DNA of 64,000 nucleotides from Mycoplana rhizolycopersici. GTDB taxonomy: Bacteria > Pseudomonadota > Alphaproteobacteria > Rhizobiales > Rhizobiaceae. Shown here in pieces: positions 3,081 to 11,676 of the stretch. Position 1 is the stretch's first letter. Each line of letters opens with the position of its first letter. The notes under the pieces were generated by a model, which saw only the letters and a program-made list of their open reading frames with translations, was not told the origin of the DNA and searched no databases. Where the stretch lies: assembly GCF_013378445.1 (NCBI RefSeq), contig NZ_JABXYK010000001.1, positions 124,001 through 188,000 of the forward strand, in the 5' to 3' direction. The position numbers and the translations under genes are program-made.

Positions 3081-3860
3081 ATGTTTCTGACAGGTCGGCA
3101 AGCGGACATCCTGGAGCTTGCCAAGGCGGAGGGCCGCGTGCTCGTCGAGGACCTCGCCGCCCGCTTCTCCGTCACCCCGCAGACCATCCGCAAGGACCTC
3201 AACGATCTCTGCGACAACAAGGCGCTGACGCGCATCCACGGCGGCGCCCTCTTCCCGAGCGGCAACGAGAACGTCAAGTACGAGGCACGCCGTTCGATCG
3301 CAGCCGCCGAAAAGCAGGCGATCGGTCAGGCCGCAGCCGCAATGATCCCGAACAACTCCTCGCTCTTCATCAACATCGGCACAACGACCGAAGCCGTCAG
3401 CGAAGCGCTGCTGGACCACAAGGAACTGATGGTCATCACCAACAATATCAACGTGGCCAACAGGTTGCGTGGATTTCCCTCGATCGAGGTGGTTATCACC
3501 GGTGGCGTCGTGCGCGGCGCGGATGGCGGCATCGTCGGCGAGGCTGCCGTCGATTTCATCCGCCAGTTCAAGGTGGATTATGCCGTGATCGGCGTGTCCG
3601 CGATCGACCATGACGGGGCTTTGCTCGACTTCGACTACCGCGAGGTGAAGGTTGCGCAGGCAATCATCGCCAATGCCCGCCACGTCATCCTCGTGTCCGA
3701 TTCGACCAAGTTCGAACGCACGGCACCCGTGCGCATCGGCCACCTTTCGCAGGTCCACACCTTCATTACCGACAGTTGTCCGCTCGACAATGTCCGCGCG
3801 ATCTGCGCCGAGCACGACGTCAGGCTTGTCGAGACCGCCTCAAAAGCCCCCCACCCCTGA
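3081..3860 (+). CDS. glpR: DeoR-family transcriptional repressor, GlpR-like
   Basis: A 259-residue DeoR-family regulator. The N-terminal helix-turn-helix (residues 1-57, FLTGRQADILELAKAEGRVL, then SVTPQTIRKDLNDL) is followed by RIHGGA and the DeoR C-terminal sugar-phosphate domain with INIGTTTEA, ITNNINVA, GGVVRGADGG and the SDSTKF motif. E. coli GlpR responds to glycerol-3-phosphate; the immediate downstream position of glpD and a glycerol ABC transporter supports the same effector here. The ATG at 3081 has GGGAGGATTCG upstream. A perfect inverted repeat lies just before the gene, suggesting autoregulation. The glpD promoter lies between this gene and glpD, so the two can be transcribed separately. 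Confidence 0.9.
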   Translation: MFLTGRQADILELAKAEGRVLVEDLAARFSVTPQTIRKDLNDLCDNKALTRIHGGALFPSGNENVKYEARRSIAAAEKQAIGQAAAAMIPNNSSLFINIGTTTEAVSEALLDHKELMVITNNINVANRLRGFPSIEVVITGGVVRGADGGIVGEAAVDFIRQFKVDYAVIGVSAIDHDGALLDFDYREVKVAQAIIANARHVILVSDSTKFERTAPVRIGHLSQVHTFITDSCPLDNVRAICAEHDVRLVETASKAPHP

Positions 3861-3882
3861 TCGATTTTCCTTCACCCTTCGT

Positions 3883-3953
3883 TTGACATTCGTAATATTT
3901 TCGTTTTAACTTCCCGTGCTTTCGCAATTGCGCAATATTGTGCACTGCGAAAG
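3883..3953 (+). promoter_or_regulatory. glpD promoter with putative GlpR half-sites
   Basis: A perfect TTGACA -35 box (3883-3888) is followed by a poor -10 region near 3906-3912 overlapped by TTTTCGTTTT (3898-3907), the same half-site as in the glpR operator. TTTCG recurs 21 bp downstream (3920-3924), and CTTTCGCA (3919-3926) pairs with TGCGAAAG (3946-3953). Repressor bound here would cover the -10 and start region. Promoter and operator calls are by inspection only. Confidence 0.65.
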
Positions 3954-3967
3954 TGCAGGGGGGTAAA

Positions 3968-5485
3968 GTGGCGGACGACGCGGTCAAGGACATCTTTGTC
4001 ATCGGTGGCGGCATCAATGGATGCGGCATTGCCCGCGACGCTGCCGGTCGCGGCTATTCCGTCGTGCTCGCCGAAATGAAGGACTTCGCCTCGGGCACCT
4101 CCTCCGCTTCCACCAAGCTCATCCACGGCGGTCTGCGCTATCTGGAACACTACGAGTTCCGGCTGGTGCGCGAGGCGCTGATGGAGCGCGAGGTGCTCTG
4201 GGCCATGGCTCCGCACGTCATCTGGCCGATGCGCTTCGTCCTGCCGTTCCACAAGGGCGGCATCCGGCCCGCCTGGCTGATCCGGCTCGGGCTGTTCCTT
4301 TACGACCATATCGGCGGCCGCAAGCTGCTGCCGGCGACGCGCACGCTCGACATGCGCCGCGATCCGTCCGGCAAGCCGCTCAAGAATCTCTTCGACAAGG
4401 CGTTCGAGTATTCCGACGGATGGGTGGACGATGCGCGTCTCGTCGTCTTGAACGCGCGTGACGCCGCCGATCGCGGCGCCGACATCCGCGTCGGAACCCG
4501 CGTCGTCTCAGCGCGGCGCGAGAACGCCCATTGGGATGTCGAGACCGAGAATATGGCGTCCGGCGAACGCGACGTCGTCAAGGCCCGCATGCTGGTGAAC
4601 GCCAGCGGCCCGTGGGTGGACAAGGTTCTCGCCGGCGCCTTCGGCCAGAACGACGTGCACAATGTGCGCCTCGTCCAGGGCAGCCACATCGTCGTCCGCC
4701 GGAAGTTTTCCGATCCGCGCGCCTACTTCTTCCAGAATCCGGACGGGCGCATCATCTTCGCCATACCCTATCAGGACGATTTCACCCTGATCGGCACCAC
4801 CGACCGCGACTATGTGGGCGACCCGCACGAAGCCAGGATCAGCGACGAGGAGATCGACTATCTCTGCCGTTCAGCCAGCGAGTACTTCGTCGAACCGGTC
4901 ACGCGCGACGACATCGTCTGGACCTATTCCGGCGTCCGCCCGCTGTTCGACGACGGCGCCAGCAAGGCGCAGGAGGCCACCCGCGACTACGTGCTGAAGG
5001 TGGACGGCAATTCCCAAAAGGCGCCGCTGCTCAACGTCTTCGGCGGCAAGCTGACCACCTATCGCCGGCTGGCCGAATCGGCACTGGAAAAGATCGGCGA
5101 GGCGATCGGCGAGAAGGGGCGCAAGTGGACGGCCGGCTCGCGGCTGCCAGGCGGCGATTTCGGCACCGGCGAATTTGACAAGGAGGTCGCCCGCCTCGCC
5201 CAGCTCTATCCCTTTGTCACTTCTGCCCATGCAAGGCGGCTGATCCGCCTATACGGCACCCGCGCGACCAGACTTCTGGGCGGTGCGAAGACAATCGAGG
5301 ACCTCGGCCGTCATTTTGGCAGCGATCTCTACGAAATCGAGGTACGCTGGTTGATGGCAGAGGAGTGGGCGCGGCACGCAGACGATGTCCTGTGGCGCCG
5401 TACCAAGCGCGGCCTGCACCTGACAGCCGCGGAGGCGGAGGCATTGGAAGACTATATGACCAAGGCGTTGCAACCCCCGAACTGA
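3968..5485 (+). CDS. glpD: Aerobic glycerol-3-phosphate dehydrogenase
   Basis: A 505-residue FAD-dependent, membrane-associated enzyme oxidising glycerol-3-phosphate to dihydroxyacetone phosphate and passing electrons to the quinone pool. The FAD loop is VIGGGINGCG (11-20), followed by TSSASTKLIHGGLRYLE; later NASGPW, the substrate-region TTDRDY, TYSGVRPL and GGKLTTYRRLAE are typical of GlpD, as is the C-terminal cap domain. The GTG at 3968 with AGGGGGG upstream gives the usual family length; a longer frame from 3938 would lie inside the operator. It is first in the glycerol operon, ahead of glpSTPQUV. Confidence 0.97.
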   Translation: MADDAVKDIFVIGGGINGCGIARDAAGRGYSVVLAEMKDFASGTSSASTKLIHGGLRYLEHYEFRLVREALMEREVLWAMAPHVIWPMRFVLPFHKGGIRPAWLIRLGLFLYDHIGGRKLLPATRTLDMRRDPSGKPLKNLFDKAFEYSDGWVDDARLVVLNARDAADRGADIRVGTRVVSARRENAHWDVETENMASGERDVVKARMLVNASGPWVDKVLAGAFGQNDVHNVRLVQGSHIVVRRKFSDPRAYFFQNPDGRIIFAIPYQDDFTLIGTTDRDYVGDPHEARISDEEIDYLCRSASEYFVEPVTRDDIVWTYSGVRPLFDDGASKAQEATRDYVLKVDGNSQKAPLLNVFGGKLTTYRRLAESALEKIGEAIGEKGRKWTAGSRLPGGDFGTGEFDKEVARLAQLYPFVTSAHARRLIRLYGTRATRLLGGAKTIEDLGRHFGSDLYEIEVRWLMAEEWARHADDVLWRRTKRGLHLTAAEAEALEDYMTKALQPPN

Positions 5486-5496
5486 CGGGGGTTTCC
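5472..5496 (+). terminator. Hairpin over the glpD stop codon, possible attenuator
   Basis: AACCCCCG (5472-5479) pairs perfectly with CGGGGGTT (5486-5493) around a six-base loop that holds the glpD stop codon. Only three T follow, so it is at best a weak terminator between glpD and glpS, or an mRNA-processing/stability element. Confidence 0.45.
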
Positions 5497-5525
5497 AATG
5501 GCTGGGAGGAACATTGGAGACATGA

Positions 5526-6602
5526 ATGCTTGAATTGAGAGATACCGCCAAGGTCGTGGGAGGGGAGACGCACATCCACCCCACCAGCCTCGTGCTCGAG
5601 CGCGGATCGCTGAACGTGTTGCTCGGCCCGACGCTGTCGGGCAAGACGTCGCTGATGCGGCTGATGGCCGGTCTCGACAAGCCGACCTTCGGCTCGGTCT
5701 GGTTCGACGGCAAGGATGTCACCGGCCTGCGCGTACAGGATCGCAGCGTCGCGATGGTCTACCAGCAGTTCATCAACTATCCGGCGATGACCGTCTACGA
5801 GAACATCGCCTCGCCGATGCGCATCAAGGGCGCCGACCGCGAGACGATCGACCGCGAAGTACGCAAGGCCGCAGACCTGCTCAGGCTCACCCCCTATCTG
5901 GACCGCACGCCGCTGAACCTTTCCGGAGGCCAGCAGCAGCGCACGGCGCTTGCGCGCGCCATCGTCAAGAATGCGAGCCTCGTCCTCCTCGACGAACCGC
6001 TGGCGAACCTCGACTACAAGCTGCGCGAGGAAATGCGCGAGGAACTGCCGAAGATCTTCGCAGCCTCCGGCGCCATCTTCGTCTATGCCACGACCGAACC
6101 TTCCGAGGCGCTCCTGCTGGGCGGCAACACCGCGACCATGGCGGAAGGCCGCATCACCCAGTTCGCGCCGACGATCGACGTCTATCGCAGCCCCGTGGAT
6201 CTGATCACCGCCGAGACCTTCGCCGACCCGCCGCTGAACACCTTTGCGCTGACCAAGGCGAACGGGCATTTCGTCCTGGAGGGCGAGCGGGTACTGAACG
6301 TTCCCGCCCATCTCGCCGGCATCGCGGACGGACCCTGCACGGTCGCGTTCCAGCCGCATCACCTGTCGCTGTCGCCGCAGTCGGCCTCGGCAGCACCGGT
6401 GACGGTGCGCACGGCGATCTCGGAGATCGCCGGTTCCGAAAGCTTCGTCCATGTCGAATTCGCCGACACGCGCTGGGTCATGCTGGCGCCCGGCATCCAC
6501 GACATCGAACCCGATGCGACGATCACCGTCTATGTCGACACGCGCCATCTGATGGCGTTCGCCCCGGATGGCAGGGCCATCGCCCGTCCGGCGGCGGCCT
6601 GA
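5526..6602 (+). CDS. glpS: Glycerol ABC transporter ATP-binding protein GlpS
   Basis: A 358-residue ATPase of the MalK/UgpC class. Walker A is GPTLSGKT (34-41), the signature is a canonical LSGGQ (132-136), Walker B LVLLDEP (152-158), D-loop LANLD, and a TOBE-like regulatory domain forms the last 120 residues. The switch (H-loop) position reads ATTEPSEAL instead of VTHDxxEAL, so the histidine is replaced by Thr190. The partner GlpT has the opposite defect (see findings). In Rhizobium leguminosarum the homologous GlpSTPQUV system imports glycerol. The ATG at 5526 has GGAG six bases upstream. It follows glpD by 40 bases and precedes glpT by 10. Confidence 0.93.
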   Translation: MLELRDTAKVVGGETHIHPTSLVLERGSLNVLLGPTLSGKTSLMRLMAGLDKPTFGSVWFDGKDVTGLRVQDRSVAMVYQQFINYPAMTVYENIASPMRIKGADRETIDREVRKAADLLRLTPYLDRTPLNLSGGQQQRTALARAIVKNASLVLLDEPLANLDYKLREEMREELPKIFAASGAIFVYATTEPSEALLLGGNTATMAEGRITQFAPTIDVYRSPVDLITAETFADPPLNTFALTKANGHFVLEGERVLNVPAHLAGIADGPCTVAFQPHHLSLSPQSASAAPVTVRTAISEIAGSESFVHVEFADTRWVMLAPGIHDIEPDATITVYVDTRHLMAFAPDGRAIARPAAA

Positions 6603-6612
6603 GGAGGAAGCC

Positions 6613-7683
6613 ATGGCACGCATAAATCTCGAGCATATCCGCCACGCCTACGGCGAGCGACCGAAGTCGGAAGACGACTATGCGCTGAAGGAAGTGCATC
6701 ACGAGTGGAACGACGGCGGCGCCTATGCGCTGCTGGGGCCTTCCGGCTGCGGCAAGACCACGCTGTTGAACATCATCTCCGGGCTGCTGCAGCCTTCCGA
6801 GGGACGGATCCTGTTTGACGGCCGCGACGTCACCGAGCTTTCGACGCAGCAGCGCAACATTGCCCAGGTGTTCCAGTTTCCGGTCATCTACGACACGATG
6901 ACGGTCTACGACAACCTCGCTTTCCCTTTGCGCAACCGCCACGTCCCGGAAGCTGAGGTCGACCGCCGGGTCCGGGAGACCATCGATATGATCGGCCTCT
7001 CCGGTTGGGCCGATCGCAAGGCGCGCCGTCTGACCGCCGACCAGAAGCAGAAGATCTCGCTCGGCCGCGGGCTGGTGCGCAACGACGTCAACGCCATCCT
7101 GTTCGATGAACCGCTGACGGTGATCGACCCGCACATGAAATGGGTGCTGCGCTCGCAGTTGAAGAAGCTGCACCGGCAGTTCGGCTTCACCATGGTCTAC
7201 GTTACCCACGACCAGACCGAGGCGCTGACCTTCGCCGACAAGGTCGTCGTCATGTATGACGGCCAGATCGTCCAGATCGGCACGCCGGCCGAACTCTTCG
7301 AGCGTCCGAGCCACACCTTCGTCGGCTACTTCATCGGCTCGCCGGGCATGAACCTGTTGCCAGCGCGCATCGACGGCAGCACCGTCTCGCTTGGCACCGA
7401 CGCGATCACGCTCGACTACCAGCCGAAGGTTGCCGCAGGGGCCAGGACCGAACTCGGCATCCGCCCGGAATTCATCCGTCTCGGCCGAGAGGGCATGCAC
7501 GTGCACGTAAAGAAGGTCGAGGACATCGGCCGGCAGAAGATCGTCCGCGCCGAATTCGCCGGCAAGTCGATCGCGATCGTCGTGCCGGAGGATGGCGAGA
7601 TCCCCGCCGAGCCACGCATCACCTTCGATCCGTCCGCCATCAATATCTACGCCGACAGCTGGCGCGTCGGCAGGGAGGCCTGA
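6613..7683 (+). CDS. glpT: Glycerol ABC transporter ATP-binding protein GlpT
   Basis: A 356-residue second ATPase of the importer. Walker A GPSGCGKTT (42-50), Walker B AILFDEP (161-167) and switch histidine 199 (VTHDQTEAL) are intact, but the ABC signature is degenerate: LTADQ (140-144) replaces LSGGQ, and the D-loop reads LTVID. Together with GlpS this predicts one canonical and one degenerate ATP site. The C-terminal TOBE region contains LGIRPEFI. The ATG at 6613 follows GAGGAAGCC; an upstream in-frame extension into glpS is not needed. The name follows the rhizobial glycerol system, not the E. coli glycerol-3-phosphate antiporter GlpT. Confidence 0.93.
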   Translation: MARINLEHIRHAYGERPKSEDDYALKEVHHEWNDGGAYALLGPSGCGKTTLLNIISGLLQPSEGRILFDGRDVTELSTQQRNIAQVFQFPVIYDTMTVYDNLAFPLRNRHVPEAEVDRRVRETIDMIGLSGWADRKARRLTADQKQKISLGRGLVRNDVNAILFDEPLTVIDPHMKWVLRSQLKKLHRQFGFTMVYVTHDQTEALTFADKVVVMYDGQIVQIGTPAELFERPSHTFVGYFIGSPGMNLLPARIDGSTVSLGTDAITLDYQPKVAAGARTELGIRPEFIRLGREGMHVHVKKVEDIGRQKIVRAEFAGKSIAIVVPEDGEIPAEPRITFDPSAINIYADSWRVGREA

Positions 7684-7685
7684 CC

Positions 7686-8552
7686 ATGGAAAGAACCTGG
7701 AACAACAAGGCCTGGTTCATGGTCCTGCCGGTGCTGCTGCTGGTTGCCTTCTCGGCCGTCATCCCGCTGATGACGGTGGTCAACTACTCGGTCCAGGACA
7801 CCTTCGGCAACAACCAGTTCTTCTGGGCCGGCACCGACTGGTTCACAGAAATCCTTCACTCCGACCGCTTCTGGGCAGCACTCGGCCGCAACCTGCTCTT
7901 TTCCGCCATCATTCTGACGATCGAGATCCCGCTCGGCATTCTGATCGCCCTCAACATGCCGAAGAAGGGGCTCGGAGTGCCGGTGTGCCTCGTCCTTATG
8001 TCGTTGCCGTTGCTCATTCCGTGGAACGTGGTGGGCACGATCTGGCAGGTGTTCGGTCGCGTCGACATCGGGCTGCTCGGTTTCACGCTGAAGGCGCTCG
8101 GCTTCGATTACAACTACGTCAACGACGTGTTCGACGCCTGGGTGACGTTGATCGTCATGGACGTCTGGCACTGGACGAGCCTCGTCGTGCTGTTGTGCTA
8201 TGCCGGCCTCGTCTCCATCCCCGAGGCCTACTACCAGGCCGCCAAGATCGACGGCGCCTCGCGCTGGGCCGTCTTCCGCCACATCCAGCTGCCGAAGATG
8301 AAGCGCGTGCTTCTGATCGCCTTCCTGCTGCGCTTCATGGACAGTTTCATGATATACACCGAACCCTTCGTCGTCACCGGCGGCGGCCCGGGCAACTCGA
8401 CCACCTTCCTGTCGATCGACCTCGTCAAGATGGCGATCGGCCAGTTCGACCTCGGACCGGCCGCGGCCATGTCGATCATCTACTTCCTCATCATCCTGCT
8501 GTTGTCGTGGATCTTCTATACGGTCATGACCAGCAGCGACGACCAGGCGTGA
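7686..8552 (+). CDS. glpP: Glycerol ABC transporter permease GlpP
   Basis: A 288-residue inner-membrane permease of the MalF/UgpA type, with about six hydrophobic segments starting at residue 10 (FMVLPVLLLVAFSAVI). The cytoplasmic EAA loop that docks to the ATPases is EAYYQAAKIDGASRW. It pairs with GlpQ to form the channel. It starts two bases after the glpT stop and ends 10 bases before glpQ, in one transcription unit. Confidence 0.94.
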   Translation: MERTWNNKAWFMVLPVLLLVAFSAVIPLMTVVNYSVQDTFGNNQFFWAGTDWFTEILHSDRFWAALGRNLLFSAIILTIEIPLGILIALNMPKKGLGVPVCLVLMSLPLLIPWNVVGTIWQVFGRVDIGLLGFTLKALGFDYNYVNDVFDAWVTLIVMDVWHWTSLVVLLCYAGLVSIPEAYYQAAKIDGASRWAVFRHIQLPKMKRVLLIAFLLRFMDSFMIYTEPFVVTGGGPGNSTTFLSIDLVKMAIGQFDLGPAAAMSIIYFLIILLLSWIFYTVMTSSDDQA

Positions 8553-8562
8553 GGAGGAAAAG

Positions 8563-9458
<896 letters not shown>

Positions 9459-9459
<1 letters not shown>

Positions 9460-9878
9460 TGGCCGCCAACGCCAACCACAACAATCGCTGGCCCTTGCCG
9501 CTCGCCGCCGTGCTGCTCATCTACGCGCTAGCCGCCGGCATGCTTATGATGTCGCTGCCGGTCAAGGACGGCGCGCGCGACTGGTTCGCACCGCTCATTC
9601 CCGGCGGATGGATGGCTTGGACATTCCCGACGGCGATGTTCTTCCTGACTATTTTCGCGCTGCTGGCGCTGCTGGCAGTCTGGGAATATGCCCGTCCGGG
9701 GGGCAATCCGCGCATCGGCATCCTGCGCTTCGAGACGACGCGCGGCGACCGGCTGTTCGTGTCGCTGCTCGGCTCGGCATACATCAATCTCGCATGGCTG
9801 GGGCTGGTCGGTCCCAACCTGTGGTGGGCACTTGCCCTGTGCGTGGTCTACGTCATCGGCGTATTCCGATACGTATGA
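9459..9878 (+). CDS. glpU: Small membrane protein GlpU (DUF2160-like)
   Basis: A 139-residue protein with three or four hydrophobic segments (about 12-35, 53-74, 99-115 and 119-136). It matches the small predicted integral membrane protein encoded in the glycerol ABC transporter operon of rhizobia. It has no known catalytic motif and its function is not established; a structural or accessory role with the GlpPQ permease is likely from its constant place in the operon. The ATG overlaps the glpQ stop by one base. Confidence 0.88.
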
Positions 9879-9948
9879 GGCAATGAAAACGGGGGGCTAG
9901 GGAGGATCCGGCCTTTCAAATAGCAGTCGCACAACCCAAGGGAGGATT

Positions 9949-11676
9949 ATGATGCGAAGGCACCTTTTGACAACGACGGCAGCCATGCTGCTGGCAATGA
10001 CTGGCACGGCGTTTGCCGACATGGACGCGGCAAAGAAATTCCTCGATGCCGAGATCGGCGATCTCTCCAGTCTCGATCGCGCCGCCCAGGAAGCGGAAAT
10101 GCAGTGGTTTATCGATGCCGCCAAGCCTTTTGCCGGCATGGACATCAAGGTCGTCTCCGAAACGATCACCACGCATGAATACGAGTCCAAGGTTCTTGCA
10201 CCGGCCTTCACCGCGATCACCGGCATCAAGATCACCCACGACCTGATCGGCGAAGGCGACGTCATCGAAAAGCTTCAGACGCAGATGCAGTCGGGCGAGA
10301 ACATCTACGACGCCTATGTCAACGACTCGGACCTCATCGGCACCCACTGGCGCTACCAGCAGGCGCGCAGCCTGACCGACTTCATGGCGAACGAGGGCAA
10401 GGACGTCACCAACCCCAACCTCGACCTCGCCGACTTCATCGGCACCTCGTTCACCACTGCTCCGGACGGCAAGCTCTACCAGCTTCCGGACCAGCAGTTC
10501 GCGAACCTCTACTGGTTCCGCTACGACTGGTTCAACGACGAGAAGAACAAGGCCGACTTCAAGGCCAAGTACGGCTACGACCTCGGCGTTCCCGTAAACT
10601 GGTCGGCCTACGAGGACATCGCCGAATTCTTCACCGGTCGCGAAATCGACGGCAAGAAGGTCTATGGCCACATGGACTACGGCAAGAAGGACCCTTCGCT
10701 CGGCTGGCGCTTCACCGACGCCTGGCTCTCGATGGCCGGTAACGGCGACAAGGGCATCCCGAACGGCAAGCCGGTCGACGAATGGGGCATCAAGGTCGAT
10801 GAAAACTCCCGTCCGGTCGGCTCGTGCGTGGCCCGCGGTGGTGACACCAACGGTCCGGCTGCCGTCTATTCGATCGAGAAGTACCTGCAGTGGCTGAAGG
10901 CCTACGCGCCGGCCGCCGCCCAGGGCATGACCTTCTCCGAATCGGGCCCGGTTCCCTCGCAGGGCGAAGTCGCCCAGCAGATGTTCACCTACACGGCGTT
11001 CACCGCGGACTTCGTGAAGCCGGGTCTTCCGGTCGTGAACGAGGACGGCACGCCGAAGTGGCGTTTCGCTCCCTCGCCGCACGGCGTCTACTGGAAGGAC
11101 GGCATGAAGCTCGGCTACCAGGACGTGGGTTCCTGGACGCTGATGAAGTCGACGCCTGACGACCGCGCCAAGGCCGCATGGCTCTATGCGCAGTTCGTGA
11201 CCTCGAAGACCGTGGACGTGAAGAAGAGCCATGTCGGCCTGACGCTGATCCGCGAATCCTCGATCGCCCACGAGTCGTTCACCGAGCGGGCGCCGAAACT
11301 CGGCGGTCTGATCGAATTCTACCGTTCGCCGGCCCGCGTTCAGTGGTCGCCGACCGGTACGAACATTCCGGACTATCCGAAGCTCGCCCAGCTGTGGTGG
11401 CAGGCGATCGGCGATGCGTCGTCGGGTGCGAAGACCCCGCAGGAAGCCATGGATTCGCTCTGCGCCGAGCAGGAAAAGGTGCTCGAACGCCTGGAACGCG
11501 CCGGCGTCATGGGCGACATGGGCCCGAAGCTCGCCGAAGAGCACGACATCGACTACTGGAACAAGGACGCCATCGCCAAGGGCAACCTCGCTCCGCAGTT
11601 GAAGATCGCCGACGAGAAGGAAAAGCCCCTCACCGTCAACTACGACGAACTCGTCAAGAGCTGGCAGGCAAATTGA
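9949..11676 (+). CDS. glpV: Glycerol ABC transporter substrate-binding protein GlpV
   Basis: A 575-residue periplasmic binding protein, larger than the usual 400-450 residues for its class. The N-terminus MMRRHLLTTTAAMLLAMTG with AFA before DMDAAK is a Sec signal peptide cleaved near residue 24. The mature part contains ITTHEYESKVLAPAF, DAYVNDSDLIG and YQLPDQQFANLYWFRYDWF, typical of the rhizobial glycerol receptor. A strong ribosome site (GGGAGGATT) precedes two adjacent ATG codons. The gene is last in the operon, 70 bases after glpU, and is followed by a terminator. Confidence 0.94.
   Translation: MMRRHLLTTTAAMLLAMTGTAFADMDAAKKFLDAEIGDLSSLDRAAQEAEMQWFIDAAKPFAGMDIKVVSETITTHEYESKVLAPAFTAITGIKITHDLIGEGDVIEKLQTQMQSGENIYDAYVNDSDLIGTHWRYQQARSLTDFMANEGKDVTNPNLDLADFIGTSFTTAPDGKLYQLPDQQFANLYWFRYDWFNDEKNKADFKAKYGYDLGVPVNWSAYEDIAEFFTGREIDGKKVYGHMDYGKKDPSLGWRFTDAWLSMAGNGDKGIPNGKPVDEWGIKVDENSRPVGSCVARGGDTNGPAAVYSIEKYLQWLKAYAPAAAQGMTFSESGPVPSQGEVAQQMFTYTAFTADFVKPGLPVVNEDGTPKWRFAPSPHGVYWKDGMKLGYQDVGSWTLMKSTPDDRAKAAWLYAQFVTSKTVDVKKSHVGLTLIRESSIAHESFTERAPKLGGLIEFYRSPARVQWSPTGTNIPDYPKLAQLWWQAIGDASSGAKTPQEAMDSLCAEQEKVLERLERAGVMGDMGPKLAEEHDIDYWNKDAIAKGNLAPQLKIADEKEKPLTVNYDELVKSWQAN

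Follow-up and report, generated by a model that had tools for sequence, protein, structure and literature searches.

Complementary motif changes in GlpS and GlpT suggest one hydrolytic and one remodelled ATP site in a putative glycerol importer

GlpS and GlpT, the two ATPases of a putative glycerol importer, probably form a heterodimer with one hydrolytic site and one remodelled, ATP-holding site, as judged from their motifs. The observed basis of this explanation is the sequence states of the two proteins, their conservation, the constant pairing of their genes in one operon and the predicted fold of each subunit. The number of ATP molecules that an ABC importer spends per substrate, and the need for both sites to fire, have been debated mostly from transporters with two identical sites. 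GlpSTPQUV was described as a glycerol ABC transporter of Rhizobium leguminosarum VF39 by Ding et al. 2012 (as cited in PMC7912956), and the title of that paper, as cited there, states that glycerol utilization requires the transporter. An operon mutant of glpVSTPQ of Ruegeria pomeroyi was tabulated for glycerol (PMC10130141), and a Pseudodesulfovibrio was also reported to carry glpSTPQUV (PMC11505543). Uptake, regulation, growth or gene content have thus been described for operons of R. leguminosarum, Cupriavidus, Ruegeria and Pseudodesulfovibrio (PMC7912956, PMC10130141, PMC11505543); the covered parts of the R. leguminosarum and Ruegeria glycerol operon papers do not mention the ATPase motifs, on which the present analysis is focused. 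No account of the ATP-site asymmetry of GlpST was found among the papers listed from the open-licence literature, which represents the field in part and does not include Ding et al. 2012, so this absence weighs little.

Results

The window, which is the whole 64-kb stretch of DNA that was analysed (genome of 5.6 Mb), carries glpR-glpD-glpS-glpT-glpP-glpQ-glpU-glpV in one direction from 3081 to 11676.

3081..3860, + strand: glpR, DeoR/GlpR-type repressor (best match PRK10906, 278 bits, below its cut-off of 331)
3938..5485, + strand: glpD, glycerol-3-phosphate dehydrogenase (PRK12266, 798.6 bits, above the cut-off of 360)
5526..6602, + strand: glpS, MalK-type ATPase of 358 aa; LSGGQ kept, switch His lost
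6613..7683, + strand: glpT, MalK-type ATPase of 356 aa; switch His kept, signature and D-loop altered; alternative upstream start at 6568
7686..8552, + strand: glpP, permease (BPD_transp_1)
8563..9459, + strand: glpQ, permease (BPD_transp_1)
9459..9878, + strand: glpU, small membrane protein DUF2160 (PF09928, 119.1 bits), the operon marker
9949..11676, + strand: glpV, solute-binding protein (SBP_bac_1)

Gene content and order were the same as in the glycerol ABC operon on an annotated R. leguminosarum plasmid (L304). By these two features, the window operon comprises GlpSTPQUV-type glycerol transporter genes with a putative role in glycerol uptake. The small glpU gene sits between the permease and binding-protein genes. 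On the R. leguminosarum plasmid glpV is followed by glpK; no glpK was identified downstream of glpV in the 64-kb window, and the sole glycerol kinase above the family cut-off in the own genome lies on another contig (C5). The longest open reading frame of GlpT opens at 6568 (371 aa) and stops at 7683. AGGAGG is found just upstream of the ATG at 6613, and relatives often begin with MARI or similar there, which makes this ATG the best predicted start. It gives a protein of 356 aa, so the numbering of His199 used in the earlier note is correct.

Both proteins belong to the ABC ATPases (ABC_tran, PF00005: GlpS 95.9 and GlpT 92.6 bits, cut-off 25). The Pfam domain OB_MalK was matched by GlpT only; the models of both proteins matched MalK-type chains over the full length, including the MalK C-terminal OB/regulatory domain. 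The cut-off of 432 for NCBIfam UgpC (PRK11650) was reached by neither GlpS (239.9 bits) nor the 356-aa GlpT (296.5 bits). AlphaFold models, built with alignments of 49 (GlpS) and 47 (GlpT) family members, had pLDDT values of 89.7 and 88.1, and the best PDB matches of both were full-length MalK-type chains, mostly with TM-scores of 0.8-0.9 and about 27-37% identity. A PDB sequence search with GlpS and GlpT returned the same MalK-type relatives, and no structure of GlpS or GlpT was among the 60 top-ranking PDB sequences listed for each query. These models indicate that GlpS and GlpT each have a predicted MalK fold. They share the full-length fold, C-terminal domain included, with E. coli MalK and other MalK/UgpC-type (CUT1) ATPases, but GlpST differs from these in having two diverged subunits instead of one, in the alteration of one composite site and in scoring below the UgpC cut-off with both subunits.

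A tree of 87 domains (25 GlpS, 25 GlpT, 11 foils and 26 from the own genome) placed GlpS and GlpT in one clade each (100/100), with respective stem lengths of 1.6 and 1.5 changes per column, among MalK-type ATPases. Since each forms one clade on a long stem, the asymmetry lies on both stems and is older than the divergence of the sampled sequences. An origin of GlpS and GlpT as sisters from a recent duplication was unsupported, as the two long-stemmed clades stood in different parts of the MalK-type tree. The nearest neighbours of GlpT were other two-ATPase systems of the own genome, weakly joined (83/85, long branches), and this join is possibly a long-branch effect. Named GlpST members occurred in Alpha-, Beta- and Gammaproteobacteria. 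Many copies are located on plasmids, so spread by transfer is possible.

In ABC dimers, the D-loop reaches across the dimer interface. Each ATP site combines Walker A, Walker B and the switch residue of one subunit with the signature of the other (PMC7756269). Applied to GlpS and GlpT, this gives two composite sites, A and B, with the following elements.

5625..5651, + strand: GlpS Walker A GPTLSGKTS, residues 34-42; site B, altered, Lys40 kept
5919..5933, + strand: GlpS signature LSGGQ, residues 132-136; site A
5991..5996, + strand: GlpS Walker B Asp156-Glu157; site B, catalytic Glu kept
6093..6095, + strand: GlpS Thr190 replacing the switch His; site B
6736..6762, + strand: GlpT Walker A GPSGCGKTT, residues 42-50; site A
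7030..7044, + strand: GlpT signature LTADQ, residues 140-144; site B
7105..7110, + strand: GlpT Walker B Asp165-Glu166; site A
7114..7128, + strand: GlpT D-loop LTVID, residues 168-172; reaches site B in trans
7207..7209, + strand: GlpT switch His199; site A

The earlier note had claimed that GlpS keeps LSGGQ but carries Thr190 at the switch, and that GlpT keeps Walker A and His199 but has LTADQ as its signature. The former was confirmed from the open reading frame 5526-6602 and the alignments, the latter in the 356-aa numbering. Two further changes were found in the same composite site as Thr190 and LTADQ: the Walker A of GlpS reads GPTLSGKT, against GPSGCGKT in GlpT, and the D-loop of GlpT reads TVID, against ANLD in GlpS and SNLD in single-ATPase relatives. 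All four deviating elements (GlpS Walker A and Thr190, GlpT signature and D-loop) fall in site B and none in site A, so that site A is complete, as had been claimed. Site B had been called doubly damaged. Both changes are indeed there, together with those of the GlpS Walker A and the GlpT D-loop, but the site appears remodelled and conserved, with Lys and Glu kept. One canonical and one degenerate site are thus supported at the level of sequence and fold.

From these states, GlpS and GlpT would act as an obligate MalK-like heterodimer that serves the permeases GlpP and GlpQ, because by motif only the heterodimer yields one complete site and neither homodimer could. Site A (Walker A, Glu166 and His199 of GlpT with LSGGQ of GlpS) would hydrolyse ATP. 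Site B joins Walker A and Glu157 of GlpS, with Thr190 in place of His, to the L-T-A-D-x signature and TVID D-loop of GlpT; it would bind nucleotide through the kept Lys and Walker B and presumably retain ATP. Its hydrolysis would be slow or absent because of the lost switch His, the Asp in the opposite signature and a TVID D-loop, and its role may be structural or one of timing. With hydrolysis at site A only, a cost of one ATP per glycerol import cycle, not two, would be the natural consequence.

To avoid picking relatives by the motifs under study, operons were gathered through PF09928, the GlpU family, which as a marker takes no account of ATPase motifs; the constant presence of GlpU in this first set is therefore by construction. 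PF09928 was matched in 48 of 385 genomes of a class sample and in 84 of 398 of a phylum sample. The set comprised 126 loci (L058-L183), leaving out the window's own locus and a match in G076 below the family cut-off. Both GlpS and GlpT were present at 116 of the 126 loci, and L129, at a contig end, had GlpT only. The nine others (L073, L074, L121-L127), found via partial DUF2160 matches, held a different single-ATPase system. This system, with GlpP/Q/V-like genes and a single canonical ATPase, is possibly a single-ATPase cousin of the Glp system.

Results showed that all 116 GlpS of the GlpU set had the LSGGQ signature, with Thr (105) or Ser (11) and never His at the switch. The 117 GlpT without exception had the switch His and TVID, and none had a GG core; their fourth signature residue was Asp in 115, Glu in one and Ala in one. 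Walker A Lys and Walker B Glu were present in all 116 GlpS and 117 GlpT. As a foil, 11 other MalK-type ATPases of the marker loci (nine from single-ATPase systems and two Glp-operon neighbours) all had LSGGQ and His. A second set was gathered by the permease GlpQ in named genomes; it held the best 80 of at least 592 relatives, mostly from Alphaproteobacteria and several from Gammaproteobacteria. Both genes were found in 79 of these 80, the short contig L263 having GlpT only. The combined sets gave 195 GlpS and 197 GlpT, with some genomes in both and 192 of 195 pairs distinct. The GlpS of L228 reads broken and has no in-frame signature; without L228 there were 194 readable pairs, 112 of them non-redundant at 80% identity.

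In the combined sets, the GlpS switch was Thr in 184, Ser in 11 and His in none of 195, and every readable GlpS kept Walker A Lys and Walker B Glu. GlpT had the switch His and the TVID D-loop in 197/197 and a GG signature core in 0/197; its third signature residue was Ala (185), Pro (11) or Val (1) and never Gly, its fourth Asp (195), Glu (1) or Ala (1). Complementary states thus occurred in 116 of 116 pairs of the GlpU set and in the 194 readable pairs of the enlarged set. The same states were seen in all four named plasmid operons inspected, from R. leguminosarum, Comamonas, Aliiroseovarius and Azospirillum, which are examples out of 261 matching records. An alignment of many GlpS and GlpT at the switch and signature positions, as the earlier note had proposed, therefore revealed universal, family-wide changes; losses specific to one strain are ruled out by both sets. 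Ser at the GlpS switch occurred together with Pro in the GlpT signature in 9 of 195 pairs, with two cases each of Ser alone and Pro alone; coevolution is not claimed, because those pairs may be one lineage.

A different arrangement would place GlpS and GlpT in separate complexes, each as a homodimer in a different assembly. MalK-type ATPases are homodimers as a rule, which speaks for it. The two genes, however, stand side by side in an operon with a single permease pair at all 116 loci with both, and a GlpS dimer would be without both His, as a GlpT dimer would be without both canonical signatures; we consider separate homodimers extremely improbable. Covariation between GlpS and GlpT (152 pairs less than 90% alike, effective number about 108) gave inter-protein scores as high as intra-protein ones and so carries no signal either way on their contact.

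The two sites of the proposed heterodimer were compared over the 112 non-redundant pairs. Mean entropy was 0.11 bits at the motif positions of site A and 0.53 at those of site B, against 1.04 for NBD columns, and 15 of 21 motif positions were invariant in site A against 9 of 21 in site B (paired sign-flip p 0.006, sequence relatedness not modelled). Lys and Glu of site B did not vary, although its other positions were looser than those of site A; position 5 of the GlpT signature and parts of the GlpS Walker A varied widely. This variability would suit a site B that decays under relaxed selection and has no role. Against such decay, TVID is kept in 197/197 and Asp143 in 195/197 GlpT, the GlpS switch is solely Thr or Ser in 195/195, and Lys40 and Glu157 are retained, so that we hold decay to be highly improbable. 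Site B is looser than site A yet well conserved, and in these alignments a kept binding site fits better than decay. Invariant TVID, near-invariant Asp143, Thr/Ser190 and the kept Lys and Glu make binding without efficient hydrolysis likelier than a dead site.

The base rate of such changes was surveyed in the own genome, where 150 ABC domains were listed (150 of 289 candidates scored) and 40 regions were hand-picked. Together with the window, these regions yielded 101 domains. Of these, 90 were complete at signature, Walker B and switch, and their switch residue was His in 74, Gln in 8, Ser in 5, Thr in 2 and Gly in 1. From their motifs, we take the domains discussed here to be of MalK-like, RbsA-like, LivG/LivF-like and Opp/Dpp-like types. 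All 22 hand-picked MalK-like single-gene ATPases had the GG core, and 21 had the switch His, with Gly in one. As these 22 are near-uniformly canonical, the changes in GlpS and GlpT go beyond chance. The MalK-like ATPase with Gly at the switch (HVTGSETE; L209:587-1660) has an intact signature core and no partner ATPase paired within 1.4 kb, so loss of the His alone need not imply a heterodimer.

RbsA-like twins had a non-GG core with His in 10 of 10 N-halves; their C-halves had GG in 8/8 readable cases, the switch His in 0/7 readable and Arg for the Walker A Lys in 7/8 readable. Compared with this last count, the presence of Walker A Lys and Walker B Glu in every readable GlpS favours the view that both GlpST sites hydrolyse ATP, the altered switch and signature being compensated and the asymmetry merely tuning rates. 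With this Lys and the catalytic Glu intact, hydrolysis at site B is conceivable, and some ABC proteins are reported to tolerate switch or signature changes; both points count against a purely ATP-holding site B. On the other hand, four elements of one site deviate jointly, among them an acidic residue at a signature position near the gamma-phosphate. Hydrolysis at both sites is thus unlikely in our judgement, and we retain the reading of one hydrolytic and one ATP-holding site.

LivG/LivF-like pairs combined a His member with a Gln member in 7/7 cases, and the signature was changed in the His member in 6/7. The LivG-like members (L202, L203, L211, L213, L214) combine His with a changed signature (L[SP]YG or LSHG) and the LivF-like ones SGG with Gln, in the same complementary layout. 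The Opp/Dpp-like ATPases of the own genome appear intact. A second MalK-type pair (L207:842-1936 and 1942-2994; G000:C4, about 145341-147493) has LSVNI in one member and Asp for the Walker B Glu in the other. Strong homologues of its second member were found in 4 of 199 genomes of the order, the own included; two of these homologues (74% and 67% identity) stood in pairs that showed the same two changes, and a third (45%) was canonical.

Neighbouring or fused NBDs in L058-L307 and the window were scored as pairs when both domains were complete and their starts lay less than 1.4 kb apart. Of the 220 pairs, 198 had Glp motifs, and every one of these carried two defects at a single site, the other site being free of them. 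The 22 others included 15 with at least two defects, six with none and one with a single defect. In all 15 the defects were confined to one composite site; L083 among them proved to be a GlpST pair that had escaped the motif filter. Without it, 14 of 14 non-Glp pairs or twins confined their defects to one site and none split them over both, but these counts are not independent because they are drawn from few families (six RbsA-like twins, six LivG/LivF-like pairs, the second MalK-type pair and one other twin, L216, which may be an exporter). One defect was seen in 13 of 71 unpaired domains; nine of the 13 seem to come from pairs or twins left incomplete by the filter, another is the GlpT of L228, and three (L209, L058 and L097) fit neither case.

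Discussion

Degenerate sites have been reviewed for the exporters TM287/288, TAP, CFTR and Pdr5 (PMC7756269). Like exporters with one degenerate site, GlpST has a changed catalytic motif in one NBD opposite a changed signature in the other, and the NBD2 signature of Pdr5, LNVEQ, resembles that of GlpT in its acidic fourth residue. The altered site of Pdr5 is without the Walker A Lys and Walker B Glu (PMC7756269), whereas GlpS keeps both, and GlpST is an importer, unlike these four. The earlier note had presented such asymmetry as well known in exporters, and it is indeed reviewed there, but it is not confined to them. One degenerate site has been noted in each of the fused importers RbsA and NupO (PMC11466899), and the RbsA-like twins of the own genome likewise have all defects in one site. 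RbsA-like twins, LivG/LivF-like pairs and the second MalK-type pair of the same genome all mark ATP-site asymmetry as not special to exporters. RbsA/NupO-type importers differ from GlpST in their fused NBDs, their CUT2 family and the mostly lost Walker A Lys of the C-half; GlpS and GlpT are encoded by two separate genes. In the outward-facing form of E. coli DppD/DppF, two ATP analogues were bound (PMC12136057).

These comparisons suggest, from motif patterns, that a design with one altered site is frequent in importers built with two different ATPase units; if so, the default picture of import energetics would shift. More tentatively, and with less than even confidence, bacterial importers with two different ATPases may have converged repeatedly and independently on one hydrolytic and one remodelled site, with one ATP per cycle as perhaps their ordinary mode. 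If this is true, the maltose transporter with its two identical sites would be a poor model for such importers, and GlpST, whose altered site retains both Lys and Glu, would provide a conserved example of a MalK-type importer in which the holding and the burning of ATP are separate. GlpST is one of several similar importer cases, and its chief value is a clean experimental handle: it is a natural importer of MalK type whose two sites can be disabled one at a time, each through a point mutation in a different gene, and growth on glycerol would serve as an easy readout for site mutants.

Another pair of MalK-like ATPases in the own genome (L204:622-1719 and the open reading frame 1424-2719) has His in both members and LAGGD as one signature, and is possibly a mild form of GlpST-like asymmetry at the sequence level. 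It lies just upstream of genes that, judged by eye, resemble parts of dihydroxyacetone kinase.
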